From the NCBI GenBank assembly GCA_021813505.1, contig JAKAKI010000016.1, forward strand, positions 1-61,241: a DNA stretch of 61,241 nucleotides. The letters are read 5' to 3'. The stretch's first letter is position 1, and each line of letters opens with the position of its first letter. Under the pieces are notes generated by a model. That model was not told where the DNA came from. It made no database searches and saw nothing but the letters and a program-made list of their open reading frames with translations. The position numbers were made by a program, and so were the translations under genes. Source of the DNA: a bacterium. GTDB taxonomy: Bacteria > Zixibacteria > MSB-5A5 > WJJR01. Positions 34,626 through 57,487 of the stretch are shown here, piece by piece.

Positions 34626-35564
34626 CTACGAGCCTGAGCCGGCCGGAAGCGGCAGGCCATTCGCCCAAGTCAGAGCATTGCGCAGAGCACGAAAACGGTT
34701 GCTGTTCGAAGGGGCACCAAGCACCACCACAGTTACGTCATGGCCATCATCGGCGGCGCTACGCGCCGCGATACACCAGCCGGCGGCATCAATGTAACCG
34801 GTCTTGGAACCGACGAATCTGTATCCGCCCCTCAGGAGGCGGTTCGTATTGACCAGGTGATACGGCCGGCGGCGGTTGACACATTGGACTGTCGTTTCCG
34901 GTGTGCTGGCGACCTGCCGAAGGAGGGGATTCTTGAGAACAGAATTCAAAAGGAGAGCGCAATCGCGCGCGTTGGAGACATTCTCCTGTGCCAGCCCGGT
35001 CGGTTCAACGACGTGGGTCGAGTCCATGCCCAAGTGATGTGCCCGGTCATTCATGCGGGCAACAAATTCCTCCTTGGACATTCCCGCGGAGCGCGCGAGC
35101 ACGCGTGCGGCGCGGTTGTCCGAGCTGACCAGCGCTGCGTAGAGATAATCGCGCAGGGCCAGTTTATCTCCGGGCCGGAAGCGCGAGCGGCTCGACTCGA
35201 AAGCGTCCTCTTTGGTGACCTGGACGATCGTGGACAAGTCCACGCCGGATTCAACGAACACCAGCGACGTCAGAAGCTTGGAGAGCGAGGCGATCGAGCG
35301 CTTTTGCAGGGCATTCTGGGTATAGAGCACATCGTTGCTGACGTTGTCGATGATCAGGGCGGCTTCGCACGACATGACCGGCCGGCGGCCACGAACTTCA
35401 ATCGCTCGATCAGGGTGCACCGCCCATTTGGGTAATTCGAGCTTGGGGGGAGCAGACTCCTGGAGACCCAGCGGCGAGGTGACCAATTCACGTGTGGTGC
35501 CCAAAATCAGGACACCGCACAAAACTACCCCACCCAACCAGATCAGTACGTGTTTCTTCATCAT
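34626..35564 (-). CDS. D-alanyl-D-alanine carboxypeptidase (PBP5 type)
   Basis: A 312-residue protein started at ATG 35564, where a single N-terminal membrane helix begins (MMKKHVLIWLGGVVLCGVLI); the longer frame upstream is unlikely. Active-site motifs of the S11 family are Ser93-x2-Lys96 (ASLSKLLTSL), Ser148-Asp-Asn150 (SSDNRAA) and Lys254-Thr-Gly (SKTGYIDAAGWC). It trims the terminal D-Ala from peptidoglycan stem peptides in the periplasm. The usual C-terminal PBP5 beta-domain and amphipathic anchor are missing; the protein ends soon after the catalytic domain, so the N-terminal helix probably anchors it. Confidence 0.9.
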   Translation of the reverse strand: MMKKHVLIWLGGVVLCGVLILGTTRELVTSPLGLQESAPPKLELPKWAVHPDRAIEVRGRRPVMSCEAALIIDNVSNDVLYTQNALQKRSIASLSKLLTSLVFVESGVDLSTIVQVTKEDAFESSRSRFRPGDKLALRDYLYAALVSSDNRAARVLARSAGMSKEEFVARMNDRAHHLGMDSTHVVEPTGLAQENVSNARDCALLLNSVLKNPLLRQVASTPETTVQCVNRRRPYHLVNTNRLLRGGYRFVGSKTGYIDAAGWCIAARSAADDGHDVTVVVLGAPSNSNRFRALRNALTWANGLPLPAGSGS

Positions 35565-35733
35565 GAAATCCCGAATTAGGGAGCGGTGGCTCCCCTGGGG
35601 CCAGCCGCAATCACATTCTACCCGTCCTGGCCCGGGCCTGCAACAGTTTTTTGAGGCCCAAGCCCATGCCAGGGCGCCTCGGGGCAGCACTGGCCCCTCT
35701 ATTCGTATTCATCGGAGTCGAAATGTGCAGAAC

Positions 35734-36510
35734 TTAGGATTCTTTAAGGAGCAGGGTCTGCATTCGGAAGGCATCCTTAACTGCTTGCCCGAGATGGCAG
35801 TTGTTGAAGAACAAGAAGATCTTATCTGCTTTTTGACGCAGTTCCTCCAGGCGCTTGACCCAGTCTTTGAGCTGCTCGTCGGTATAGGTGTAGTCGTAGC
35901 GCAATGGTCCTCCCCCCCACCAGTGCTCACCGTTTCGTCCGTGGAACCGGACATACCCCACCCGTGTGGTGGCAGAAGATTCCGGCGGGAGAAGATGGGG
36001 AAGCGAGGGCTGGTCGACATTGCAGTAGCCGATCCCAGCCTGCGATAACGCCGGCTTGACCGCCGGTGACAGCCAACTGTCGTGCCGGAATTCGGCGTAG
36101 AGCGGCAGTTCTCCAAACAGCTTCGCGCCCTGGGTCACGTATTCCAGATTCGCCGGACTGAAGCGGAATGAGCCGGGAAACTGGGCCAGCAAACCCTTGA
36201 GCTTCCCGGATTCCGCCATCGGCGCAATGGCGGCCATGAACTCGGCGGATTGTCGTTCGACCTCACGGCGTTCGTGAGTGAAGGAGGCATGCGTCTTCAC
36301 GATGAACTCGAATTCCGGGGGAGTCTTGCGCTCGATGTTGCGCATCACCGCCGGATGCGGGATACGATAGTACGTTGAGTTGATTTCAACGGTTTTGAAA
36401 TGCTCCAGATAGAAATCGAGCATCTTGCCTTTTTCGATTCCCGCGGGATAGAAGGGACCAACCCAATCCGGAAACGAATAGCCTGACGTGCCGATGAGAA
36501 TCTGCGCCAT
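35734..36510 (-). CDS. DUF72-domain protein (YecE type)
   Basis: A 258-residue TIM-barrel-like protein: ILIGTSGYSFPDWVGPFYP, then LDFYLEHFKTVEINSTYYRI, FEFIVKTHASFTHERR, QFPGSFRFSPANLEYV, and VGYVRFHGRNGEHWWGG near the end. These match the DUF72 family, whose function is unknown. GAGG precedes the ATG. It lies 9 bases after the stop of the 46-residue zinc-ribbon gene, so the two probably share a transcript. Confidence 0.9.
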   Translation of the reverse strand: MAQILIGTSGYSFPDWVGPFYPAGIEKGKMLDFYLEHFKTVEINSTYYRIPHPAVMRNIERKTPPEFEFIVKTHASFTHERREVERQSAEFMAAIAPMAESGKLKGLLAQFPGSFRFSPANLEYVTQGAKLFGELPLYAEFRHDSWLSPAVKPALSQAGIGYCNVDQPSLPHLLPPESSATTRVGYVRFHGRNGEHWWGGGPLRYDYTYTDEQLKDWVKRLEELRQKADKIFLFFNNCHLGQAVKDAFRMQTLLLKES

Positions 36511-36702: not shown

Positions 36703-37302
36703 TCATGATCGCAGGATACCCAGCCAGTCTCCCATGAGAAATTCGAGCCGGCCGATCAACAGCGCCACGCGAGACATGACGGTATAGGCGAAGGTCGCAC
36801 CAAAGAACACCATCATGAAATAACGCCCAATGCGGGCGCTGGTTCCCCAGGCGCCACGGTGGGCACGGGTGAAGACGAAGTATGTGAGGGTGGCGAGAAC
36901 ACCGATAAGGATGATCCATCCGGCCCAACTGGTTACGCCATTGGCGGTCGCTGCCATTTGATCGAGCACCCGCGCTTTGAGCATGGCCGGGATGGCCACA
37001 CCCGCGCCGCCACCAACCACCAGTGCCAATGAGATCCGCGACCACCCAGCCCAACGCGGGACAAGCCGGAGGAGGATCAAACATCCCAGAATCAGTGGCA
37101 CCAGGCCGGGCATCTCGCCGCGACCCATCGGAATGATGGCTTGCGGCCAGATGACCGATTTCAGGGTGATGACAAGAGTGTAACCGATGGTCAGCCCCAC
37201 GAGGAGGTGTTCGGCGAACTTGTAGAACGGGTTGTCGCCGGCGAGAAACGAATAGATCGCCAGCGTGAGCAGCGCGGTCGTCGTGGTCTCAAGCAGATTC
37301 AC
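36703..37302 (-). CDS. Membrane-operon gene 4: six-helix membrane protein
   Basis: A 199-residue protein with about six hydrophobic segments, beginning MNLLETTTTALLTLAIYSFL, with conserved-looking loops FYKFAEHLLVGLTIGY and RIGRYFMMVFFGATFAYTVM. No known motif or catalytic residue stands out. It overlaps the upstream gene by 4 bases and ends a four-gene minus-strand operon whose members all carry membrane segments, so it is probably a subunit of one inner-membrane complex. Confidence 0.7.
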   Translation of the reverse strand: MNLLETTTTALLTLAIYSFLAGDNPFYKFAEHLLVGLTIGYTLVITLKSVIWPQAIIPMGRGEMPGLVPLILGCLILLRLVPRWAGWSRISLALVVGGGAGVAIPAMLKARVLDQMAATANGVTSWAGWIILIGVLATLTYFVFTRAHRGAWGTSARIGRYFMMVFFGATFAYTVMSRVALLIGRLEFLMGDWLGILRS

Positions 37303-38117
37303 TGGTTTGTGCCCCTGCCGGTTTGGCTACGCCGCTTTCGCCATGCTTGAATGTTCCCTGCGACAATGAGAACGGCAATCAGGGCATGGATCGCCGATTG
37401 GGCATCCATCCCACGAGATCCCGCACCGGGTGCCGACAGGAGTTGCTCGTATTCGGCGGCGCCACGCAACCCGGCCACAATACCGGTGAGTTGATGGGAT
37501 TCGAGGTAGGGGATATACGAGGTCACCATGACCGCGGTCAGGGCAGCGGCAATCTTCACATTATACCGAGCCTGGGCATACTCCACCCAGTATGTGGGCA
37601 TTGATCCATCGGCGACCGAGATGACCAGTGCAATGTCCCGGTAGTTGTGAATGCGGCTGCCCAGCGGCGATTCCGCCAGTGAATGACCCTCATAGTCCCT
37701 GCTGAAGACCTCGCCGAGGTCTTCGCCCATACCGAGTATGGCCGAAGTGTACTGGGGCCGGAAACCGAGATAGATCCACTCAGTACCGTATGTCTTCCCG
37801 GCGGCTGAAGCTCGGCGGTTGATCAGCTCGTATCCCGCAGCGGTGCCCTCGGAGAAGAGCGCCAGTCCGACGATGCGAATACCCTTGCGGAAACAGTGAT
37901 CGACAATCGCGGTGCCGAGCGGACCAACTTCCGGAAGGCTGGACGCCTCATGATCGAATGAGATCATCACAACAGAATTGCTGTCCAGGGAGTCGATCAG
38001 GTCGAAGACATGACGGGTTTCCTGGCTCACACTCAGCGGGAATCCCGGCCGGAAGATCATTGCCGCCACTGCCACTACTCCCACGACGGCGAAGATCCAG
38101 CGGCGCGACGTCCCCAC
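37299..38117 (-). CDS. Membrane-operon gene 3: membrane-anchored alpha/beta protein
   Basis: A 272-residue protein started at GTG 38117, which follows GGAGG at a good distance just after the previous stop. The longer frame overlaps that gene. One N-terminal helix (WIFAVVGVVAVAAMIF) is followed by an alpha/beta domain (about 35-220) with SNSVVMISFDHEASSLPEVG, YGTEWIYLGFRPQY and DIALVISVADGSMPTYWVEY, then a C-terminal helix and a basic tail. Its layout (helix, soluble domain, helix) is repeated in gene 1 of the operon (38749-39651). Function is unknown. Confidence 0.7.
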   Translation of the reverse strand: MGTSRRWIFAVVGVVAVAAMIFRPGFPLSVSQETRHVFDLIDSLDSNSVVMISFDHEASSLPEVGPLGTAIVDHCFRKGIRIVGLALFSEGTAAGYELINRRASAAGKTYGTEWIYLGFRPQYTSAILGMGEDLGEVFSRDYEGHSLAESPLGSRIHNYRDIALVISVADGSMPTYWVEYAQARYNVKIAAALTAVMVTSYIPYLESHQLTGIVAGLRGAAEYEQLLSAPGAGSRGMDAQSAIHALIAVLIVAGNIQAWRKRRSQTGRGTNQ

Positions 38118-38118
38118 G

Positions 38119-38739
38119 CTATCGTCCTCCGAGGTAGGTGCGTTCCAGACCGGCGATGACCTTAAGCGAAGTGGCGACCATTCCCAATCCGATACCAATC
38201 AAGATCGCGCGTTTGGCGGCCAGCGCTGGGACATTGAGAATCCAATCAGAGACGTTTGGCAGGATGGGCGAGAGCCACTCGCCCAGCGGGACTCGGCCGA
38301 GCATCACAATGATTGCCGCCATCACCAGGATTGCCGATTCGCCCGAGCGGGCACGGAAACCACGGTAGGCGGCGGATGCGATGTAGAACGCCAAAAGTGA
38401 GAATACGGTTGACTGCATCGGCGCCTGCCAATGATCGAATACCCATTGGAACGATGTGCCGCGATCAATTCCACCTGCGAATCCGAGGATGGTCATCACC
38501 AGCACACCGGCAAGAAGCGTCACCGAGTACAGCCATCCGGCGCGTTTGCGGCCGATGCGTTCCAGATGGAGCCGAATCACACCAAACACGCCGACCACGA
38601 TGGCGAAGGCGGCGATAATCTGCATCCATGAGAGAATGGCGCGATATGCAGAGTTGGCGATTGGCAACGTGATGAAGTACTGCAGGGCCATAAAGGCGCC
38701 CGCCAAGGTTGCCGTAATGATCGCCAACCGGTCTCTCAT
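38119..38739 (-). CDS. Membrane-operon gene 2: multi-helix membrane protein
   Basis: A 206-residue protein with about five or six helices: LAIITATLAGAFMALQYFIT, AILSWMQIIAAFAIVVGVFG, a WLYSVTLLAGVLVMTILGFA segment, and AAIIVMLGRVPLGEWLSPIL. The loop RGTSFQWVFDHWQAPMQSTV lies between helices. No recognised family. It starts 9 bases after the stop of the DUF6754-like gene and ends 1 base before the GTG of the next gene. Confidence 0.7.
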   Translation of the reverse strand: MRDRLAIITATLAGAFMALQYFITLPIANSAYRAILSWMQIIAAFAIVVGVFGVIRLHLERIGRKRAGWLYSVTLLAGVLVMTILGFAGGIDRGTSFQWVFDHWQAPMQSTVFSLLAFYIASAAYRGFRARSGESAILVMAAIIVMLGRVPLGEWLSPILPNVSDWILNVPALAAKRAILIGIGLGMVATSLKVIAGLERTYLGGR

Positions 38740-38748
38740 CGCAACTGC

Positions 38749-39651
38749 CTACCTTGCCGTCCACTGAAACAGGTTGAAGCCCACAGTTGCTGTCAGCGCC
38801 GCACCAACGATGAGCAATGTCAGGACGAGGTACTTCAACCAATCCTGGCTCCAAACCGCAGCGGCAGCGGCGGGATCTTTGGCGACGATCCCCGAGGCAG
38901 CGAAGAGTTCCTCGCCGATCAGAGTGTAATCGCAGGCGACCAAAAAGAAGGATAGCTGTATGGTGGAGTCGGTTCCCGCGATCGTCATCGCCCCGGTTTG
39001 ATGGGCGGTTTCCGCCAGAATGAGTGCTTCGCCTTCGAAACTGCCGAGCAGGAAGACGGCGCCGGGGCGCTCCCGCGCCATCATTCCATCGACGGCGGCG
39101 GCATAGCCGAGCTGGCTTTGCGAGACGAAGCTGATGTCGTCGGCGCGGTACCAGTCGGGCCGACCAACGGCCAGCGCCGACTGCGACACAGTCTCCTGTG
39201 CGACGGAAACGATGAGCGGATCATGCGATGGAAACAGCAGACGGCAGTTGTACTCAGCAGCTCGTTTGGCAATCTCAGCGAGAATGCCCATCGAGGCCAT
39301 GGTTGTGGGGCGTCCCATATCCCCGCCCCAGCCGGTGGAGTAAACAACAGGTGTGCCGAGTTCGGTAGCACGTCCGAGGGCGTCGCCAACGGCGTCGAGC
39401 GCGGGCAGAGAGCGCAGTTGCAACCGCTTCCCTCGTTTGACGAGGAGCGCCGCAATCGCCAGAGCCAGGATGGCGATGACGATCCCGATAAGCTCGGCGA
39501 TTCGAGATGAGTGGAACCAACCGGCCGCTGACGTTGCTGAACTTGCTGAATCCGCGAGAGCTGCTGCAGGAATGAGCGCAATGACGGCACCGATGGAACT
39601 GGCGATAGCGAACTGAAAGCTGACACGGCAACGCCAATTGAAAGCGCTCAT
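38749..39651 (-). CDS. Membrane-operon gene 1: DUF6754-like protein
   Basis: A 300-residue protein. ATG 39651 is preferred to the TTG at 39672. An N-terminal hydrophobic stretch and a second helix (IAELIGIVIAILALAIAALL) are followed by a soluble alpha/beta domain with the striking GTPVVYSTGWGGDMGRPTTM and NCRLLFPSHDPLIVSVAQET, FVSQSQLGYAAAVDGMM and GSFEGEALILAETAHQTGAM. A C-terminal helix ends the protein. The STGWGGDMGRP block is what I remember for DUF6754, an uncharacterised family. It heads a tight four-gene operon of membrane proteins. No enzymatic role can be read. Confidence 0.65.
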   Translation of the reverse strand: MSAFNWRCRVSFQFAIASSIGAVIALIPAAALADSASSATSAAGWFHSSRIAELIGIVIAILALAIAALLVKRGKRLQLRSLPALDAVGDALGRATELGTPVVYSTGWGGDMGRPTTMASMGILAEIAKRAAEYNCRLLFPSHDPLIVSVAQETVSQSALAVGRPDWYRADDISFVSQSQLGYAAAVDGMMARERPGAVFLLGSFEGEALILAETAHQTGAMTIAGTDSTIQLSFFLVACDYTLIGEELFAASGIVAKDPAAAAAVWSQDWLKYLVLTLLIVGAALTATVGFNLFQWTAR

Positions 39652-39710
39652 GCCTGTATAAACCGGCAACAACGGAAGGCGTCAATCAGAAAGCGAGCAA
39701 AGGCCACTGG

Positions 39711-39897: not shown

Positions 39898-40839
39898 TTA
39901 TGGCCGGATGATCAGGCCAAAGCGGTGCGTAGCACCGAGATCGTCGGAGTACGGAGCGAAGGCGTAATCGACACCAAGACGGCCATCGGCGGTGCGGGCG
40001 CCAAACCCGGCAGAAAACGTCTGGGTGCTGTACCCGAGTTTCAGCCCGGCACGCAGGGCGAGGCGCGGGTCGGGGGTGGCCTCGACGCCGAAATTCCAGC
40101 GGGCATTTTCATTATCCGGAGCCAGCAGTTCGGCTCGCAGTGTTCCGAGATGATGCTGCCAGATTGCCCCCAGACGGAACAGATCGGGCATACGGAAGTC
40201 GCGGTCAACGAAATGCGCTTGTGGACCAATGTTGGCAAGCGCGGCGCCGAATGAGAGCCGGTCGCTCTGGCGATACCGAACTCCCAGACCGAACACGACA
40301 CTTTGCGCCGTGCTGACGTCGATGTGCTCGAGGGCGTATCCCGCGGATAGTCCGGCAGAGAATCGTTCATTGAGGTCCCGAGCACACGCCGCCTGGAAGA
40401 CACCACTGGACGCGTCATACATCGAGAGCGGAAGATCGGTCGGCGAATCTTCGCGCCGCGGAATGCCGGTTACTCCCATGTAACCGATCCGGGCGCCATA
40501 CGCCCAGGTCCCAATCGGGCCACCGACGCAGACGTACTCGCCACGCGTATCCTGGAAGTAGGCGTTGTGGGAAAACGCGATGGCGGTGCGTTTCAGGGCG
40601 GCCAATCCTGCCGGATTGTACTCCATGACGAAAGGATCCGAAAAATCGGCGACCATTGTCTCACCCAGCCCCACTGCGCGTGCTCCGCCGCCGATGGTCA
40701 GGAATCGGAAGCCGGCCGGTGGGCGGTCGCTGCTTTGTGCATGGGCTGTGCCGGCCAGTATGGCGACGTTAAGAAGCAGCGTCAAAGCCGCGGACGCTCC
40801 GAAGCAACTCCGACCTCGCGTGCAGTGAGATGACTTCAT
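39898..40839 (-). CDS. PorV/PorQ-family outer-membrane protein 2
   Basis: A 313-residue protein with a signal peptide (LTLLLNVAILAGTAHAQS). FLTIGGGARAVGLGETMVAD, then DPFVMEYNPAGLAAL, is the hallmark N-terminus of PorV/PorQ-like barrels. The rest alternates as a beta-barrel and ends FGLIIRP. In Bacteroidetes, PorV shuttles cargo at the outer membrane in type IX secretion. Here a general role in secretion or assembly of the neighbouring propeller protein is inferred. It lies 52 bases downstream of a homologous gene (40892-41944), probably in the same operon. Confidence 0.82.
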   Translation of the reverse strand: MKSSHCTRGRSCFGASAALTLLLNVAILAGTAHAQSSDRPPAGFRFLTIGGGARAVGLGETMVADFSDPFVMEYNPAGLAALKRTAIAFSHNAYFQDTRGEYVCVGGPIGTWAYGARIGYMGVTGIPRREDSPTDLPLSMYDASSGVFQAACARDLNERFSAGLSAGYALEHIDVSTAQSVVFGLGVRYRQSDRLSFGAALANIGPQAHFVDRDFRMPDLFRLGAIWQHHLGTLRAELLAPDNENARWNFGVEATPDPRLALRAGLKLGYSTQTFSAGFGARTADGRLGVDYAFAPYSDDLGATHRFGLIIRP

Positions 40840-40891
40840 AATGAATTTGTCGGCCTGTCAGGCGGCGAAGCGCACAGGGCACCCGCGCCGC

Positions 40892-41944
40892 TTAGAATCG
40901 AATCCCCAGCGAAAACAGATGTTCGGCGTCAATCTTATCCGGTTGGATGGTGTACGCGTAATCGAGCGCCAGGGTCAGCTTGGGGCGAAGCTTCGGCTCC
41001 AAACCGGCGCCCAGGGTTAGATTTTTGTTATCAACGCCCGCACGCAACGAAACGAATTTGAGCGGCTTGCCCTCGGCACCGACGTGGATGCGCGAGGATT
41101 GCTTTTGATTGATCTCGCCATCAAAGGCAACCAGGAGTTTTTCGTTAAGCCAGGATGTAGCGATACCGAATCGCCCAATAATCGGGAATTTCTCGTTTAC
41201 CGCTGAGCCCGATTGGCCATTATTGACCCAATACTTGCCGGTCGTCCACGGGTACTTCTGGCCCACACATTGGAGCGCCGCGCCGAGCCGGACTTTCGAC
41301 ATCGGAATCTTGAACGATCCGAGTTCCCAATCCCGAATAAAGCGGATGTGGGTGCCGAAATCGAAACCGACGGTGTAGGCATTAATGTTCGCAATGTTCT
41401 GCTGAACATAGCGCAAGGTGACGCCCAGGGAGAATTCCGGCGTGAACTTGCGGGCGAAAGTGAACGTTGCGGCATTCGTCGCGTTTGACAACTGGGCGCC
41501 CTGCTGGCCATCCGTGCCCATTTCGTAGACATTGGAGACACCGGAGTATATCCACCCCAGGGACATCGCGGCGTCTTCCTTGCCGAATGGATGCACGAAG
41601 GCGACATAACCGGTTTGCCGATCGAAACTCATCGTGCGCCAGGCCGCTTCAAGTCCGTTAACACGGACTTGCGCGACACCCGCCGGATTCCACCAATAGG
41701 CGGTTGGACCGTCGGCGATGGCGACGTAAGCGCCACCCATGGCCACCGCGCGCGCGCCGATCCCCAACTGAACGGGCGCCCCGGCGTATCCACCGTCCTC
41801 GGCGCTCTTGGCACTGGAAGCAGCCAGGAGCAGAATCGTACACGCGATTGTGGCGGCGAACTTGTGCCGGCGCGGGGAGTTATCATGGATGTGGTTCATA
41901 TGCGATTTGCCCGCCATGCCTGATAGACTGATTCGTCTCGTCAC
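40892..41944 (-). CDS. PorV/PorQ-family outer-membrane protein 1
   Basis: A 350-residue barrel protein of the same family: YAGAPVQLGIGARAVAMGGA, then YVAIADGPTAYWWNPAGVAQ, and a C-terminal EHLFSLGIRF. A signal peptide (TIACTILLLAASSAKSAE) lies after a basic leader. The GTG at 41944 overlaps the stop of the propeller gene (GTGA); ATGs at 41917 and 41899 are alternatives with equally weak ribosome-binding sites. It is distinct in sequence from the downstream PorV-like protein, so not a recent duplicate. Confidence 0.82.
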   Translation of the reverse strand: MTRRISLSGMAGKSHMNHIHDNSPRRHKFAATIACTILLLAASSAKSAEDGGYAGAPVQLGIGARAVAMGGAYVAIADGPTAYWWNPAGVAQVRVNGLEAAWRTMSFDRQTGYVAFVHPFGKEDAAMSLGWIYSGVSNVYEMGTDGQQGAQLSNATNAATFTFARKFTPEFSLGVTLRYVQQNIANINAYTVGFDFGTHIRFIRDWELGSFKIPMSKVRLGAALQCVGQKYPWTTGKYWVNNGQSGSAVNEKFPIIGRFGIATSWLNEKLLVAFDGEINQKQSSRIHVGAEGKPLKFVSLRAGVDNKNLTLGAGLEPKLRPKLTLALDYAYTIQPDKIDAEHLFSLGIRF

Positions 41945-44580
41945 GGAATCACCACGATCTTTCCCCAGTGCGTCTGGCCATTGGCGTATTCAACAACGAA
42001 GAAATATGTCCCTGTCGCTACGAGGTCGCCTTTGCCATTGCGTCCATCCCACACGATTGTCTCATCGTATTGGATGCCAACCGTGCGCTCTGTGTTATCG
42101 GCGAATGTTTTCACCGTATTATTGGCGAAGTCATAGATCGTGACTTTGACTTTTCCCGAGACAGGGGGCGTGTAATGGATGCGAACCCCGTCGTAGAATC
42201 TGGGTGAAAACGGGACCGGCGTCGCGTATGTGCCGCCCTTTCCGGACGGGATGTCGCCGGAGATCTGCTTGAATTTCCGCCGCACCGAAATAACGCTGCC
42301 ATCCGACTTGTTGAGCACAGCCAGTCCATTGCCGGAGCCGATCCATAGTTCATCGCCGACCACACGCACGGCATACAGTTCTGTCGCCGAGTCGATGGCG
42401 GCGCCACTCGATGGGTCGACAAACCGGTCCGTCCGCTCCCAAGTGGCACCAACGTCGGGAGAATGCAATAGTCCCTGCGAAGTAGCGACCCAGACATTCG
42501 GTCCATCGAAAGCGAAGTTCCAAACGTTGACCTGTTCACCCTTACAGGTGTCACATGTTGGGATGACCATTCGCCAAGTCAGCCCACCATCGTCGGAACG
42601 GGAAATTCCAGAGAGCTCGTAGGTTGACGTCGTTTGCGTGCCCGCCCAGTAGATCCGGTTGCCGGCGTATGGCTGCACCGCGAGTGCAGTCACAAAATTG
42701 CCGGAGATCGACGGGAATTTGTGTGTCGACGTATCCACCGGCAGCCAATTGATGTGGTAGTTCAAATCAAACTCATGCCGGTTGGGATTCGACCATATCA
42801 AACCCCACAGCGAGCCGGAGTTGGTGGTGAACACGAGTCCGGAATCGGTCGCCACCCAGATGGCACTGATCGACGGTTTGTTGGTGGAGTCGGGACCAAT
42901 CTGGAGTGCCACCGAACGGGCCGGCGGTTTGGCGCGGTAGGCATTGAGATTGGCCAGATACTCGGTGGAGTCGACCTTGGGGAAGTACCCGCGCGCCAGG
43001 CCCGAATCGCTGGCCAGATAGAAGATGTTGTCGAAGAACGCGACGTCATTCGGCGTGACTTTGCGAGTGGAGACGATCCACGTCTGGCCACCGTCTTTGC
43101 TCACCGCGTAGCCATTTCGCGTGGTGTCCGATCGCAACGGACGATTGAAACTCCAGATAACGCTGCTATCCGATAGGGGCTGATACGCGAGTCCGGTGAC
43201 GCGGAGGCCGAGCTTCTCAGCCGGCAGTCCAACCTGGAGGACCGCCGCGCTGACTGGGGGCTGTCCATCGGGGACGGTGTAGAGAACGATGCCGCTGTCT
43301 GTGCCGGCATAGAGCTGGGTTGTATCGGACTTGGCCACGGCCAACAGCGTGTTGATGTGACCAAGCATGATCGCGGTATCGTCCGGAAGGAAATCGGTCA
43401 CGGCGATCGAATCCCAAGTCGCGCCATTATCGGCCGAGCGAATCAAGCCGCCCTCGGCGCAAGCGACCCACCAGGCACCTGCCGCGGTAACAATCGAAAC
43501 CGCACGCTGGCTGTGCCCCATGGCACGTTGCGGTTTGCTGGCGATCCAATGCGCCCCGGAGTCGACCGTAATCGCCAAGCCGGCACCGGCCGTCCCAGGG
43601 ATCGAATCGATGCCCACGATGATCGTGTCCCCGTGCGCCGCGAACGTCCCGACGAAATTGGTGGGGAAGCCATCGTTCTGGAAATAGGTGGTCGTCCATG
43701 AGCCGCTGCTGCGCCAGATGCCGGTGTGATTGGGGCTCATCGATAAGCCGCGCTCGGTGGCGGCGTAGAGACTGGGACCATCGAGATAGATCTTGCGGAA
43801 ATTGAATCCCGTGACCTTGAGACTGGAATCCAGATAGACAAACTTGTTGATGCCGAGTGCGGAACCAGCCAGAAGCGTCAGAGAGTCGGGCGCTGCCGTG
43901 TCCACGACACAGGAGAAGAAGCGGTTGTTCAGGCTCTCGAAGCGCTTGTTAGTCCAGTCATCTTTGGCAAACGAAGAGGGAAATATGTTGGCCCACTTGG
44001 TGCCGCCGTCGAAGGTCGTGACCAAGCCACCGGCAAAACAGGCCGCAAACACCATATCGCGGAATGAGGCCAGATCATAGGCCAGCATGAACGGGCCAGA
44101 GGCCTGGCCGGAGTCGGGCGAAACCCTGATCCACGATTCGCCCCCATTGCTCGACATGAAGACACCGTCGCCACGGGGGACAGACTGCTCCTGGACCACC
44201 TCGGCATGCGAAGTGGAGACCCATACCTGATCGCCGAATACCTGGACCGCGGGAATTTCATGATCAGAAATCGGCATGGAATCGCCGAAAATGCGCCATG
44301 CACGGTCTGCCGTTGAGTAGCTGCTGGTTCCCCGGCCAGTCGCCGCCCAGACTCCGGGAGTACCGAGAACCAGATCGACGATGCTGTTTGAGGCCGGGAC
44401 TGTATCGGTGAGGATACTGTCTGGGGTCAGGGCGGACGTCGATCTGACGAGCGGCGCCCGAGGGATAGGCGCGGCCGTCGACAAGCCGGCCTGACCGAAA
44501 AGCGAAAGCCCCAGGAGCATTAAGACGCAGACGACCGGGGCGGGAACTCGATGGTTGTGCAGGCGCATCAGATTGGGCAT
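41941..44580 (-). CDS. Secreted Asp-box propeller with FlgD-like C-terminus
   Basis: An 879-residue exported protein. The signal peptide is PVVCVLMLLGLSLFGQAGLS. The body contains at least six Asp-box (BNR) motifs, for example SNGGESW, DSGAHWI, DNGATWD, KDGGQTWI, DDGGLTWR and DVGATWE, diagnostic of sialidase/sortilin/photosystem-stability-factor-like beta-propellers. The C-terminus is a FlgD-like Ig domain (PVSGKVKVTIYDFANNTVKT, DETIVWDGRNGKGDLVATGT, YFFVVEYANGQ), used as a sorting domain in FCB bacteria. No sialidase catalytic residues are evident, so a structural or binding role is likely. It is translationally coupled to the PorV-like gene. Confidence 0.82.
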   Translation of the reverse strand: MPNLMRLHNHRVPAPVVCVLMLLGLSLFGQAGLSTAAPIPRAPLVRSTSALTPDSILTDTVPASNSIVDLVLGTPGVWAATGRGTSSYSTADRAWRIFGDSMPISDHEIPAVQVFGDQVWVSTSHAEVVQEQSVPRGDGVFMSSNGGESWIRVSPDSGQASGPFMLAYDLASFRDMVFAACFAGGLVTTFDGGTKWANIFPSSFAKDDWTNKRFESLNNRFFSCVVDTAAPDSLTLLAGSALGINKFVYLDSSLKVTGFNFRKIYLDGPSLYAATERGLSMSPNHTGIWRSSGSWTTTYFQNDGFPTNFVGTFAAHGDTIIVGIDSIPGTAGAGLAITVDSGAHWIASKPQRAMGHSQRAVSIVTAAGAWWVACAEGGLIRSADNGATWDSIAVTDFLPDDTAIMLGHINTLLAVAKSDTTQLYAGTDSGIVLYTVPDGQPPVSAAVLQVGLPAEKLGLRVTGLAYQPLSDSSVIWSFNRPLRSDTTRNGYAVSKDGGQTWIVSTRKVTPNDVAFFDNIFYLASDSGLARGYFPKVDSTEYLANLNAYRAKPPARSVALQIGPDSTNKPSISAIWVATDSGLVFTTNSGSLWGLIWSNPNRHEFDLNYHINWLPVDTSTHKFPSISGNFVTALAVQPYAGNRIYWAGTQTTSTYELSGISRSDDGGLTWRMVIPTCDTCKGEQVNVWNFAFDGPNVWVATSQGLLHSPDVGATWERTDRFVDPSSGAAIDSATELYAVRVVGDELWIGSGNGLAVLNKSDGSVISVRRKFKQISGDIPSGKGGTYATPVPFSPRFYDGVRIHYTPPVSGKVKVTIYDFANNTVKTFADNTERTVGIQYDETIVWDGRNGKGDLVATGTYFFVVEYANGQTHWGKIVVIP

Positions 44581-47124: not shown

Positions 47125-48300
47125 CTAATGTGATCCGGAATCAGGCTTATCCGGGTGCGCGGAGGGGCCTTCACCGGGCGAATCCCCAACGACCAGATTT
47201 CCGCACTTGGGACAGAATTTTGATCCGAACGGCAAGGCCGCCTGACAGTGCCCGCAGGTGATCTTTTCGGCGAGCTTGGTGCCGCACACCATACAGAAGA
47301 CAGCCTCGGTCGGCAGATCAACTCCGCATGCCGGACAGCGGTTGATGGCCAGCATGGGATTGCCGCACCGGTAGCAGAAGCGCGATTCTTCCGGCGTATC
47401 ATTGCCGCACTTGGGACAGGTGATAGTCGGCAGAGGATCGGACTTGAGATCGGTGGGGTTGGGAGTCATTGCCTTCGAGAGCAGGCCAGGCACCATCATC
47501 CCAACACCGGCGCCCATTCCCATTCCGGCGCCGGCGGCCGGCCATGAGGAGCCTGATTCGGCAAATGCTTTGGCGAGACCGAACTTCAGGAAGCGATTGA
47601 GGTCACCCACCGCGGCCATCCCGCCGCGGGCGTCAATCATCTTCTGAACGTCTTCCGGAGGCGTGATGGAGGTGATGTAGAAATCGATCAATTCCAGGCC
47701 ATACTTCTGGAATTCGACCGCGATGCGTTCCTTTGCGGCCTGGGCCAGTTCTTCGTATTGCTTTGGCAGGTCGAGGATGGTCTGCAACCGTTCACCAAAC
47801 ATATCGGTGAGCTTGAACACGATGACGTCACGCAGGTAGTCGCCAATATCCTGCGTCGAGAAGACCGCCTGGCGTCCCACGATGGAATTCAGGAACAAGA
47901 GAGGTTCGGTGACCTTCGTCGTGTAGTTTCCGAAGGCGCGCAACCGGACCAGTCCCAGTTCGTGATCGCGGAATGCGACCGGGTGGGTGGTGCCCCAGCG
48001 CAGAGAGGTGAAGACCTTGTGATTGATGAAATACACTTCGCAACGGAAGGGAGATTTCATCCCCCACGGCAAAGCCAGAAGCCGCGTGAGAATCGGCAGA
48101 TTGAGTGAGGTCAGGGTGTGGCGTCCCGGCCCGAGGACATCACACGCTTTGCCGTCTTTGAAGAACACGGCGGATTGCGACTCGCGCACGATGCATTGCG
48201 CGCCCCATTTGATGTCGGCCGATCCCTCGCTGGGAACGCGATGGATGATCTTTTCTCCGGTTGGGTCAGTCCATTCGATGATTTCGAGTAAGATGCTCAT
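47125..48300 (-). CDS. SPFH-domain protein with C-terminal zinc ribbons
   Basis: A 391-residue protein started at ATG 48300 (GGGGGACG upstream). Residues about 10-260 form an SPFH/band-7-like domain of the YdjI type: VRESQSAVFFKDGKACDVLG, PGRHTLTSLNLPILTRL, then ELIDFYITSITPPEDVQKMI. A Gly/Met-rich hinge (AGAGMGMGAGVGMMVPG) leads to three or four CxxC zinc ribbons (CPKCGN, CYRCGN, CPACGV, CGHCQA, CPKCGN). YdjI-type proteins bind membranes or recruit PspA in envelope stress. There is no pspA here. It heads an operon with the double-ribbon and Ppx/GppA genes. Confidence 0.85.
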   Translation of the reverse strand: MSILLEIIEWTDPTGEKIIHRVPSEGSADIKWGAQCIVRESQSAVFFKDGKACDVLGPGRHTLTSLNLPILTRLLALPWGMKSPFRCEVYFINHKVFTSLRWGTTHPVAFRDHELGLVRLRAFGNYTTKVTEPLLFLNSIVGRQAVFSTQDIGDYLRDVIVFKLTDMFGERLQTILDLPKQYEELAQAAKERIAVEFQKYGLELIDFYITSITPPEDVQKMIDARGGMAAVGDLNRFLKFGLAKAFAESGSSWPAAGAGMGMGAGVGMMVPGLLSKAMTPNPTDLKSDPLPTITCPKCGNDTPEESRFCYRCGNPMLAINRCPACGVDLPTEAVFCMVCGTKLAEKITCGHCQAALPFGSKFCPKCGNLVVGDSPGEGPSAHPDKPDSGSH

Positions 48301-48853
48301 TCGTCCCCCGTTGTCCCACTGCAGTTCAACTGGCCACACGAAACACTGCTCACTTCAGTTATCGGCGTGGCGGACCATCCCAGAAGCGTCTCGCCGTGTG
48401 CAATCTTTCGCATACTCTACCAGCGCAACGGCGGCATGTGGGTTGCATCCCAGAGGGGCGGCACAGGCCAACTTCCGGCTCGAGGTTGCAGTCTGATTGT
48501 GGGAAGATCCCTACGTCGGCGAAGTTGACGACGATGGACTTGTCGACTTCGGAATCGACTGGTAAGAGTGAGCCGGGTGGCAGCCAACACCAATCTGAGA
48601 ATGCCACCGCTTCGCCATGAGATCCACGTTCCGCCCACCGATGTTCTTGAGCCCGCGGTTGGTGGATATCAATCAGTGAATGCGTGATATGAACTTATTC
48701 TGACGACGGGCTGTTGCGGGAGTATCTTCTCGCCCTTTGTAACCTATTGCGAATGAACACATTCGAATTGGGGGTGGAGGTCTGGCCACGGTGGAATGGC
48801 AATTGCTTTGCTGGTGGGGATATGAATCTTAACCCAAAGGGAGGACGAAACAA
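48301..48853. other. Non-coding stretch with a possible operator
   Basis: About 550 bases. A minus-strand frame at 48359-48607 (82 codons) has no ribosome-binding site and no recognised similarity; I do not call it. The palindrome CGAATG-AACA-CATTCG (48750-48765) is a candidate operator for the metal-binding lipoprotein gene downstream. AAAGGGAGGACG just before 48854 is that gene's ribosome-binding site. Confidence 0.4.
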
Positions 48854-54943: not shown

Positions 54944-57487
54944 ATGAAGAATCCACTGGGCAATTTCGAGTTCCGTTTGGGCAGCGACAAATTGCAGCGC
55001 CACGGGTCGTACTTCCTCGCCGGGGTGATCTGCCTATTGGTGGTTGCACTCTACCTCAGCGACTACCGCGGCCTCGCATCGCTTGAGCTCAGGATACAGG
55101 ATTCCATGGTGTCGCTTGGCCGCCGTCCGCAACCGGCGAGCAATGTGGTCATCGTGACCATCGACGATGAGGCCGTCAAGAAACTGGGACGCTGGCCCTG
55201 GGATCCGGAGCGTGTCGGGTACCTCGTCGGCATGCTTTCCGAATACCAGCCATCGGCGATCGGACTGGACTTCGAAATCAGCGCGGAGGACGCGAACGAT
55301 CCAGCAAGGAACAAGTTTCTGGAGAACATGATTACCCAGGCGGGTAATGTGATTCTCCCGCTTCGGTTCACACTGGGCCAGCCTGGCAGCGCGCCCCAAG
55401 GCACACCTGACTATGTCCGCAAATCCAGTTATGTGACAGTCGATGATGCCACGTCGCTGATGGACCATCCGTATCCGCAGGCGCATCACGTCACGCGTCC
55501 CTATGAGGCCATCTGTAAGGCCGCGTGGGGACTGGGCGAAACGAACACCTGGCAGGACGTCGACGGCAAGGTACGCCGCGATCCCCTCGTCGTGAGTTTC
55601 GATGGGGATTACTATCCGGCGATGGCGCTGCAACTGGCGCGGTGTGCGATGAAACTCAATCGCACGCAGGTGCGCATCGATCCCGGCAAGGGGATTATTC
55701 TGGGTTCATCGGTGGTTCCCTGCGATGACGCCGGGCTATTGCGCATCGACTACCGTGGACCGGCGGGTACACTGCGCTCGGTCTCCGCTGCGAGAGTTCT
55801 CGAGGGCCAGGCGGACAAGAATCTGATCACCGGCAAGATTGTGGTGGTGGGTGTCACGGCTTCCGGCTATGGAACAAGCCTGAGCACTCCGGCCTCACCC
55901 GCGCTGCCGCGCGCCGAGAAGATTGCGACGACCACGGCGAATATCATGGAAGGGCGCTACATCACGACGGTGACTTTGTCGACCGTGCTGGACTTGCTGA
56001 TCCTGGTCGCGGTAGCCGCCTTCTGCGCCTTCGTGCTCCCTCGCGTGGTATTTCAGTATCGTGTGATTATCCTGCTGGTAGTGGCGTTCCTGTTTATCGA
56101 TCTCAATTTCATTCTGTACAATTCGTTCAAGCTGGTCACCAAGACGCTGTATCCGTCGCTTGAGATTCTGCTCTTCCTGCTCTTCTCCCCCGCCATGAAG
56201 CCGCCTCCGGCGGTCAAATCGAAAACCGGCGCGGCCAAGATACTCCCGCGGCCGGAACACGCGGCGGCGGCCGTAAGCCAGGAAGTTCCGCGGCCGGCTA
56301 AGGCGGAGAAACGCAAGAATGTCTCGGTTGACAGCGATGGCGTTCGCGTCCGCGTGATCCCGGCCGATGAGCCGGCCCCCACGATCGGCGGACTGGAACG
56401 GACGATGGTGATCGACGCGGCCCTGCTGTCTGGCGCGGTCTCAGCCACCCCACCACCTCCACCGAACTCTGTGTCCGATACGCGCGAAACCACTGCGGCG
56501 TCCGCGAGCGAAGAGGCCGATTCTTTTGAGAGCACACGGCAACTGATGGATGCCAGTCCTGCGCCACTCGGTGCGGATTCGGGTTCCGACGGACAAATGG
56601 ACATCTCCTCCGGTCAAATCAATCTGGAGACGGCCACGCTGAAGAAGCTAGGGCGGTACGAGATCCTGAGCGTGCTGGGACAGGGAGCCATGGGCACGGT
56701 CTACAAGGGTAAGGACCATGCCATCGAACGCCTGGTCGCATTGAAGACAATTCGCGCCGGGTACGGCGGAACTCCGGCGGAGGCCGAGGAATTGCGCGAA
56801 CGCCTGGTGCGCGAGGCCAAGGCGGCGGGCAAGCTGTCGCATCCGAATATCGTGACGATCTACGACGTCGGCGCCGACGGTGACCTGCGCTACATCGCCA
56901 TGGAGTATCTCGAAGGATACACGCTCGAACAAGTGGTCCGCAAGAAAGTCCAATTGAATTACCGGATTGCGGCCAAGATCCTGATGCAGGTGTGCGCGGC
57001 GCTCGATTATGCGCACAAGGCCGGGATTGTCCATCGTGACATCAAGCCGGCCAATATCATGGTGCTCGACGGGTTCAAGATCAAGGTGACCGATTTCGGC
57101 ATTGCGCGATTTGAATCGGCGCAAATGTCGATGACCCAGACAGGGATCGCGCTGGGGACCCCGCACTACATTTCGCCGGAGCAATTGCGTGGCGGCACCA
57201 TCGATCGCCGTTGCGACATATTCAGTCTCGGCGTGGTCGCCTACGAGCTTCTGACCCACCGGCGTCCGTTTATTGGCGACAACATTTCCGCACTCATCTA
57301 TTCGATCACCCAGACCAATCCCGCGGCACCGTCGGCGGTCGATCAGAATATCCCCGGAATCTTCGACGTGGTGATCTCCAAAGCGCTCGCCAAGGAGCCG
57401 CGCGAGCGCTACCAGTCGGCCGACGAAATGGCCAACGACCTCAGAGTCTTCGCCGAGGACTTGACGGCGAAGTCGTATCGGATTTAA
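54944..57487 (+). CDS. CHASE2-sensor Ser/Thr protein kinase
   Basis: An 847-residue membrane protein. One N-terminal helix (YFLAGVICLLVVALYLSDY) leads into an extracytoplasmic CHASE2 domain (about 45-330): VVIVTIDDEAVKKLGRWPWD, PSAIGLDFEIS and ITGKIVVVGVTASGYGTSLS. Three helices follow (about 345-410), then a Pro/Ala/Glu-rich linker. The kinase domain (about 569-840) has the Gly loop GQGAMGTVYKG, Lys601, His697-Arg-Asp699 (HRDIKPANIM) and Asp717-Phe-Gly719, with GTPHYISPEQLRGG. It is a Hanks-type kinase fused to a sensor usually found on histidine kinases and cyclases. The linker's threonine-rich ERTMVIDAAL may bind the neighbouring FHA protein. Confidence 0.92.
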   Translation: MKNPLGNFEFRLGSDKLQRHGSYFLAGVICLLVVALYLSDYRGLASLELRIQDSMVSLGRRPQPASNVVIVTIDDEAVKKLGRWPWDPERVGYLVGMLSEYQPSAIGLDFEISAEDANDPARNKFLENMITQAGNVILPLRFTLGQPGSAPQGTPDYVRKSSYVTVDDATSLMDHPYPQAHHVTRPYEAICKAAWGLGETNTWQDVDGKVRRDPLVVSFDGDYYPAMALQLARCAMKLNRTQVRIDPGKGIILGSSVVPCDDAGLLRIDYRGPAGTLRSVSAARVLEGQADKNLITGKIVVVGVTASGYGTSLSTPASPALPRAEKIATTTANIMEGRYITTVTLSTVLDLLILVAVAAFCAFVLPRVVFQYRVIILLVVAFLFIDLNFILYNSFKLVTKTLYPSLEILLFLLFSPAMKPPPAVKSKTGAAKILPRPEHAAAAVSQEVPRPAKAEKRKNVSVDSDGVRVRVIPADEPAPTIGGLERTMVIDAALLSGAVSATPPPPPNSVSDTRETTAASASEEADSFESTRQLMDASPAPLGADSGSDGQMDISSGQINLETATLKKLGRYEILSVLGQGAMGTVYKGKDHAIERLVALKTIRAGYGGTPAEAEELRERLVREAKAAGKLSHPNIVTIYDVGADGDLRYIAMEYLEGYTLEQVVRKKVQLNYRIAAKILMQVCAALDYAHKAGIVHRDIKPANIMVLDGFKIKVTDFGIARFESAQMSMTQTGIALGTPHYISPEQLRGGTIDRRCDIFSLGVVAYELLTHRRPFIGDNISALIYSITQTNPAAPSAVDQNIPGIFDVVISKALAKEPRERYQSADEMANDLRVFAEDLTAKSYRI

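Follow-up and report, generated by a model that had tools for sequence, protein, structure and literature searches.

A recurrent four-gene membrane cassette with a DUF6754 subunit, and its GlmL-related ATPase partner, in Zixibacteria and other bacteria

The question addressed here is what is encoded by four contiguous membrane protein genes, located on the minus strand of a Zixibacteriota contig (assembly GCA_021813505.1, contig JAKAKI010000016.1), which was analysed over its whole length of 61,241 bp, hereafter the window. A sequence-only reading had described these genes as an operon, possibly encoding an inner-membrane complex with two related soluble domains. The four genes are listed in the order in which they are read.

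G1, 38749-39651, minus strand: 307-aa ORF, with ATG at 39651 and TTG at 39672 as possible starts; three membrane segments by hydropathy; match to PF20539.
G2, 38119-38739, minus strand: six-helix membrane protein (5-6 segments by hydropathy); no family above cut-off.
G3, 37299-38117, minus strand: helix, predicted extracytoplasmic alpha/beta domain, helix (two segments by hydropathy); N-terminus and C-terminus predicted inside.
G4, 36703-37302, minus strand: polytopic membrane protein (5-7 segments by hydropathy); no family above cut-off.

G3 probably starts at the GTG at 38117 rather than at the TTG at 38198, since the latter is located upstream of the beginnings of its homologues. G1 and G2 are separated by 9 nt and G2 and G3 by 1 nt, while G3 and G4 overlap by 4 nt (GTGA). 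With these spacings, G1-G4 form a tight operon, very probably co-transcribed and translationally coupled. The original description of four overlapping or nearly abutting genes, all with membrane helices, was thus confirmed by ORFs, spacings and hydropathy.

Comparison with family profiles revealed that G1 is a true DUF6754 protein (PF20539; E=3.2e-84, 282.5 bits against a gathering cut-off of 27), matching positions 3-249 of the 257 of the profile, so that the label "DUF6754-like", assigned from the sequence, was exact. No Pfam or NCBIfam family was found above cut-off for G2, G3 and G4. In profile searches of the PDB with G1-G4 the conserved parts were unmatched, the sole match being Fn3 for the G1 N-terminus, and no relatives were found in the viral and plasmid collections searched. 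Comparison with a sister genus member gave dN/dS values of 0.11 for G1, 0.05 for G2 and 0.06 for G4, which are therefore under strong purifying selection. The PF20539 match, the low dN/dS and a gene order recurring in dozens of genomes, described below, mark G1-G4 as more than chance ORFs. The G3 copy of the sister genome (L139:11553-12371, contig JACRMA010000110.1) contains one in-frame stop in the middle of the gene, due either to decay or to a sequencing error.

The other genes of interest in the window are the following.

39898-44580, minus strand, directly upstream of G1: two PorV/PorQ-family outer-membrane barrels, and a BNR-repeat protein of 879 aa whose C-terminus is FlgD-Ig-like.
35734-36510, minus strand, directly downstream of G4: DUF72 gene, a position that it shares in about 12 of the 20 window-type loci.
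34626-35690, minus strand, after the DUF72 gene: D-Ala-D-Ala carboxypeptidase (S11).
47125-48339, minus strand: SPFH/Band-7 protein with C-terminal zinc ribbons.
54944-57487, plus strand: Ser/Thr protein kinase carrying a fused CHASE2 sensor domain.

The PorV/PorQ-BNR trio, possibly a type-IX-like secretion outlier, is located upstream of the cassette in two further genomes from this family as well (L141, L142).

The arrangement is repeated within the host. Its assembly, although incomplete, contains five DUF6754 genes, each followed by G2, G3 and G4 homologues in the same order: three of these cassettes are located on contig C36, one on C85 and one in the window. The C85 cassette (L038:100-2252) lies close to genes resembling ExbB/TolQ and ExbD and to one for a TPR protein, a neighbourhood found in the two genus members only. 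Within the phylum, to which also belong the two close relatives detected by a single-protein search (both Candidatus Zixiibacteriota), DUF6754 was found in 133 of 133 genomes, most often in five copies each, against none of 14 control genomes, and G1 was accompanied by its partners in order in 38 of 40 loci.

G3 was used to evaluate the distribution at a larger scale and was detected in 173 genomes out of 289; of the 156 from outside the phylum, 41 were positive. Sixty out-of-phylum genomes, 41 G3-positive and 19 G3-negative, were then searched for DUF6754, which was present in 40 of the former and in none of the latter (Fisher p about 1e-14). The phyletic survey suggested in the sequence-only reading therefore shows that the genes co-occur. 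In 37 of 40 out-of-phylum loci, G1-G2-G3-G4 occur as one or more complete sets, each encoded on a single strand. DUF6754 was also present in all 20 genomes of a second phylum and in 3 of 4 genomes of a third. Overall, outside Zixibacteria the cassette is distributed over about 40 bacterial families; with the home phylum included, it covers at least three phyla, with 1-7 cassettes per genome. Omp85 is present in nearly all sampled genomes, and does not discriminate for or against the idea that the cassette is restricted to diderms. In one out-of-phylum genome (L126:3763-8737), three additional G3 genes follow the cassette in tandem, the external subunit being amplified alone.

The history of the cassettes was reconstructed from a tree of 110 concatenated cassettes and from single-gene trees of 62 Zixibacteria cassettes. 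In the former, the Zixibacteria copies form five clades interleaved with outside sequences, and most duplications must therefore be older than the phylum. From this sequence comparison, the five cassettes of the host go back to five old duplication events, each of which carried all four genes as a block. The paralogue lineages were all recovered (5/5) in the G2, G3 and G4 trees, and in 4 of 5 cases in the G1 tree, while pairwise mirror-tree correlations among G1-G4 range between 0.68 and 0.93. The trees thus point to an absence of subunit swapping between paralogous cassettes, as expected of a dedicated complex. The proposal of an inner-membrane complex whose genes travel together is supported by the order kept outside the phylum, by the five host cassettes and by the congruent trees.

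Clustering of the genes neighbouring the cassettes revealed that two of them, a PF13941 ATPase and a protein named here C0, are repeatedly found next to G1-G4. Many loci contain two further genes, located before the ATPase: D, a small soluble helical protein of about 130 aa, and E, made up of two helices and a PH-like part with a weak bPH_7 match. The resulting larger operon can be written as E-D-ATPase-C0-[G1-G2-G3-G4]n, with one to three cassettes after C0; the order ATPase-C0-G1-G2-G3-G4, with gaps down to -4 nt, is also found in Zixibacteria loci. The neighbour analysis in other phyla, proposed from the sequence alone, recovered the cassette order and, in addition, partners encoded outside the window: the ATPase, C0, the PH-like protein and the small protein, like the five-fold amplification, are absent from the earlier description.

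The companion ATPase, about 600 aa long, matches PF13941 ("MutL") with 429-430 bits against a cut-off of 27, and its ATP motifs TDCGSTTTKA, VDIGGATTD and GSGGVLSH are conserved. We take this family to be that of the GlmL accessory proteins, with an ASKHA (actin/Hsp70) fold, and not mismatch-repair MutL. The protein falls short of all the NCBIfam cut-offs for GlmL (230 of 475, 218 of 600 and, for TIGR01319, 182.6 of 204 bits), and its identification with the methylaspartate mutase GlmL equivalog was discarded. By these profile scores it is classed as GlmL-related, not GlmL. C0, a cytosolic protein about 376 aa long and well conserved between families, weakly resembles barrel-sandwich domains at its N-terminus (RnfC_N, Biotin_lipoyl, RNA polymerase beta') and a KOW domain at its C-terminus.

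Both companions follow the cassette. Among out-of-phylum genomes, C0 was found in 37 of 41 cassette-positive ones, and PF13941 above cut-off in 38 of 41, leaving four and three positive genomes, respectively, without such a match; in the 19 cassette-negative genomes, neither C0 nor an above-cut-off PF13941 match was found. ATPase and C0 are usually single-copy each, as opposed to the 1-7 cassettes. In three genomes, a single ORF of about 950-1015 aa, located away from the cassettes, joins an ATPase-like to a C0-like part (L198:6237-9095, L199:5132-8089 and L200:4878-7925). The window cassette is adjacent to neither gene. In the incomplete host genome, the ATPase is located at the end of contig C71 and C0 was not found; since a genus mate carries ATPase, C0 and cassettes in a row, the missing C0 is likely to reflect an assembly gap.

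The subunits were then compared in terms of domain structure, topology and conservation. G1 is made up of a signal-peptide-like helix, a first membrane helix, the DUF6754 alpha/beta domain (residues about 77-280) and a second membrane helix. Its relatives start with a signal peptide and a Fn3-like domain, and their N-terminal region is sometimes much longer; the window G1 has lost this Fn3-like domain. Strongly conserved are R87, GRATE (100-104), R200, GxFxxE (210-215), E221 and FFxxxCDYTLIGEE (242-255). Two conserved-looking blocks had been singled out in the sequence-only reading, and both are present; one of them, STGWGGDMGRPTTM, located in G1, is typical only of the paralogue lineage of the window. 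Conserved in G2 are a predicted cytoplasmic loop with SAAYRxFRAR and a C-terminal GxERxYLG, and in G4 a predicted cytoplasmic loop with SFLxxDNPxYKxAEH and a C-terminal FGAxFGYTVMxRxxLLIGR. The most conserved loops of the two polytopic proteins, G4 22-32 and G2 123-134, are both predicted to face the cytoplasm.

In G1, positive-inside counts gave 6.9 K+R near the membrane on the side of the domain, against 1.7 and 0.6 outside. The DUF6754 domain is predicted to be cytoplasmic, and the G3 domain extracytoplasmic, with both G3 ends inside. Conservation is higher at positions predicted to be cytoplasmic than at external positions (0.65 against 0.48, p=7e-19), also when G2 and G4 alone are evaluated (0.62 against 0.40, p=1e-8). 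The G3 extracytoplasmic domain, at 0.51, is fairly conserved.

The suggestion that G1 and G3 carry two related soluble domains did not hold. Homology was rejected, as profile comparison gave a probability of 1.8%, with only a membrane helix aligned; G1 and G3 would rather contribute two apparently unrelated alpha/beta domains, on opposite membrane faces according to the predicted topology. G2 and G4 gave a weak match (15%), and homology is not claimed. Foldseek comparison of the two soluble domains, also suggested earlier, was performed on AlphaFold models of low confidence (mean pLDDT 52 for G1, from a 3-sequence alignment, and 57 for G3, from a 2-sequence alignment), and gave no fold match at E<0.001. 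Methyltransferase- and dehydrogenase-like matches were generic, with TM below 0.4, and were treated as meaningless. The models fit an alternating alpha/beta order and nothing beyond.

The four genes are tied to ATPase and C0 by a shared operon and by their phyletic profile. Taken together, the data favour, with a probability of about 0.38, the reading that G1-G4 may make up an inner-membrane module belonging to a so far undescribed envelope machine, driven or gated by ATP, whose composition is well supported and whose function we infer. In such a machine, the ATPase-C0 pair would dock on the conserved cytoplasmic face, formed by the DUF6754 domain of G1, G4 22-32 and G2 123-134. Driven by ATP, the ASKHA cleft would open and close, and this motion would be relayed through the G2/G4 membrane core to the G3 domain on the outside, as well as to the Fn3 domains of those G1 proteins that have them. 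The outside domains might then move or remodel an envelope substrate, whether this is exported, inserted or subjected to mechanical work. Each paralogous cassette would endow the shared motor with an external specificity of its own, the window cassette being one specialised unit. Several points count against this explanation: ASKHA proteins are often scaffolds or reactivases, not motors; the level of conservation of the G3 domain is unusual for a purely substrate-specific part; the window cassette is not adjacent to ATPase and C0, and C0 was detected in the genus mate but not in the incomplete host genome; some cassette-positive genomes gave no C0 match or no PF13941 match above cut-off; and the structural models were of low confidence, with generic fold matches.

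In a wider and more doubtful form, the machine would be universal in the phylum, one ASKHA ATPase and a barrel-sandwich adaptor driving several interchangeable four-protein modules; if so, a transport or force-generating system would be powered by an ASKHA instead of a Walker-type ATPase. Whatever the mechanism, in at least two phyla none of the sampled genomes lacks the system, and elsewhere about one in four sampled families has it, generally as several paralogues; a central role in the cell is therefore likely. The gene set E-D-ATPase-C0-[G1-G2-G3-G4]n provides a defined target for expression, purification, structure determination and knockout.

Other explanations may be considered for the same gene set. 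The GlmL-like ASKHA protein could be a nucleotide-regulated organiser of the PilM/FtsA type, sitting on a G1-G4 frame which links cytoplasm and envelope and moves no substrate. PilM, GspL and FtsA are ASKHA scaffolds with membrane partners, and the small helical D, the PH-like E and the Fn3-rich exteriors would suit a structural role, as would the near-universal presence in two phyla, typical of core cell structures. However, the ATPase has its relatives in GlmL, with no match to PilM, FtsA or other type IV pilus families, and the membrane helices of G2 and G4 are as conserved as the loops, beyond the needs of an anchor; this possibility is doubtful. The GlmL/MutL relationship would also be expected if the cassette encoded a membrane enzyme or cofactor complex of one-carbon or lipoate metabolism, for which the GlmL-like protein would serve as reactivating chaperone, by analogy with glutamate mutase. 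In agreement with this, gcvT, gcvH, gcvPA and/or gcvPB and/or a lipoate ligase gene adjoin D-ATPase-C0 in six out-of-phylum loci (L201, L202, L203, L204, L113, L119), and L202 is a nearly gapless operon running from gcvT through G4 to lplA. Most loci, including all those from Zixibacteria, are nevertheless devoid of a glycine-cleavage neighbourhood, no mutase genes were seen, and GDC-P is found also in most cassette-negative genomes, with no strong phyletic contrast, which makes such a complex unlikely.

The receptor or uptake complex of the sequence-only reading, in which two ligand-binding domains would be related to each other and lie on one side of the membrane, is more unlikely still: although both domains resemble alternating alpha/beta folds in the weak models, and window-type cassettes of other families adjoin a sugar ABC importer, the domains lack homology and are predicted on opposite sides, and the importer, which occurs in some families only, is transcribed divergently. 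Very improbable is a redox- or ion-coupled complex of the Rnf/Nqr type, with C0 as the RnfC/NqrA-like entry subunit. The C0 N-terminus matches RnfC_N (1.7e-4, 22.0 of 25.6 bits), and the C0 part of one fusion matches NQRA_N (4e-4, 20.9 of 25 bits), but both matches are below cut-off, that to RNA polymerase beta' is equally weak, and neither other subunits nor Fe-S or flavin motifs were seen in the loci.

The envelope machine reading was finally compared with known systems. A search of the freely accessible journal literature found no paper naming DUF6754, PF20539 or PF13941, and the eight proteins gave no PADLOC match to anti-phage defence. The statement that no described system has this build agrees with the lack of Pfam, NCBIfam, PADLOC or PDB relatives of G2-G4, and G1-G4 belong to no described kind that we could find. 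PF20539 includes G1 as a full-length member, and its description mentions no function, cassette, ATPase or C0. With GlmL/MutL of glutamate (methylaspartate) mutase (PF13941, NF040745) the operon ATPase has in common the ASKHA family and the ATP motifs; it differs in scoring below the NCBIfam cut-offs and in being linked to membrane genes, not mutase genes. The other similarities are analogies only. PilM-PilN-PilO of type IV pili also combine a cytosolic ASKHA protein with small inner-membrane partners, whereas the present set comprises a pair of polytopic proteins plus two alpha/beta domains predicted on opposite sides, and none of G1-G4, C0 and the ATPase matches the Pfam or NCBIfam families of PilM, PilN or PilO. 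ECF and ABC transporters likewise use one cytosolic ATPase module for several membrane modules, a similarity of logic and not of parts: no ABC_tran or permease was found above cut-off in G1-G4, ABC genes being only neighbours in some families, and the companion ATPase is of the ASKHA and not of the Walker type. What was already available is the DUF label of one subunit and the misleading name "MutL" for the ATPase.
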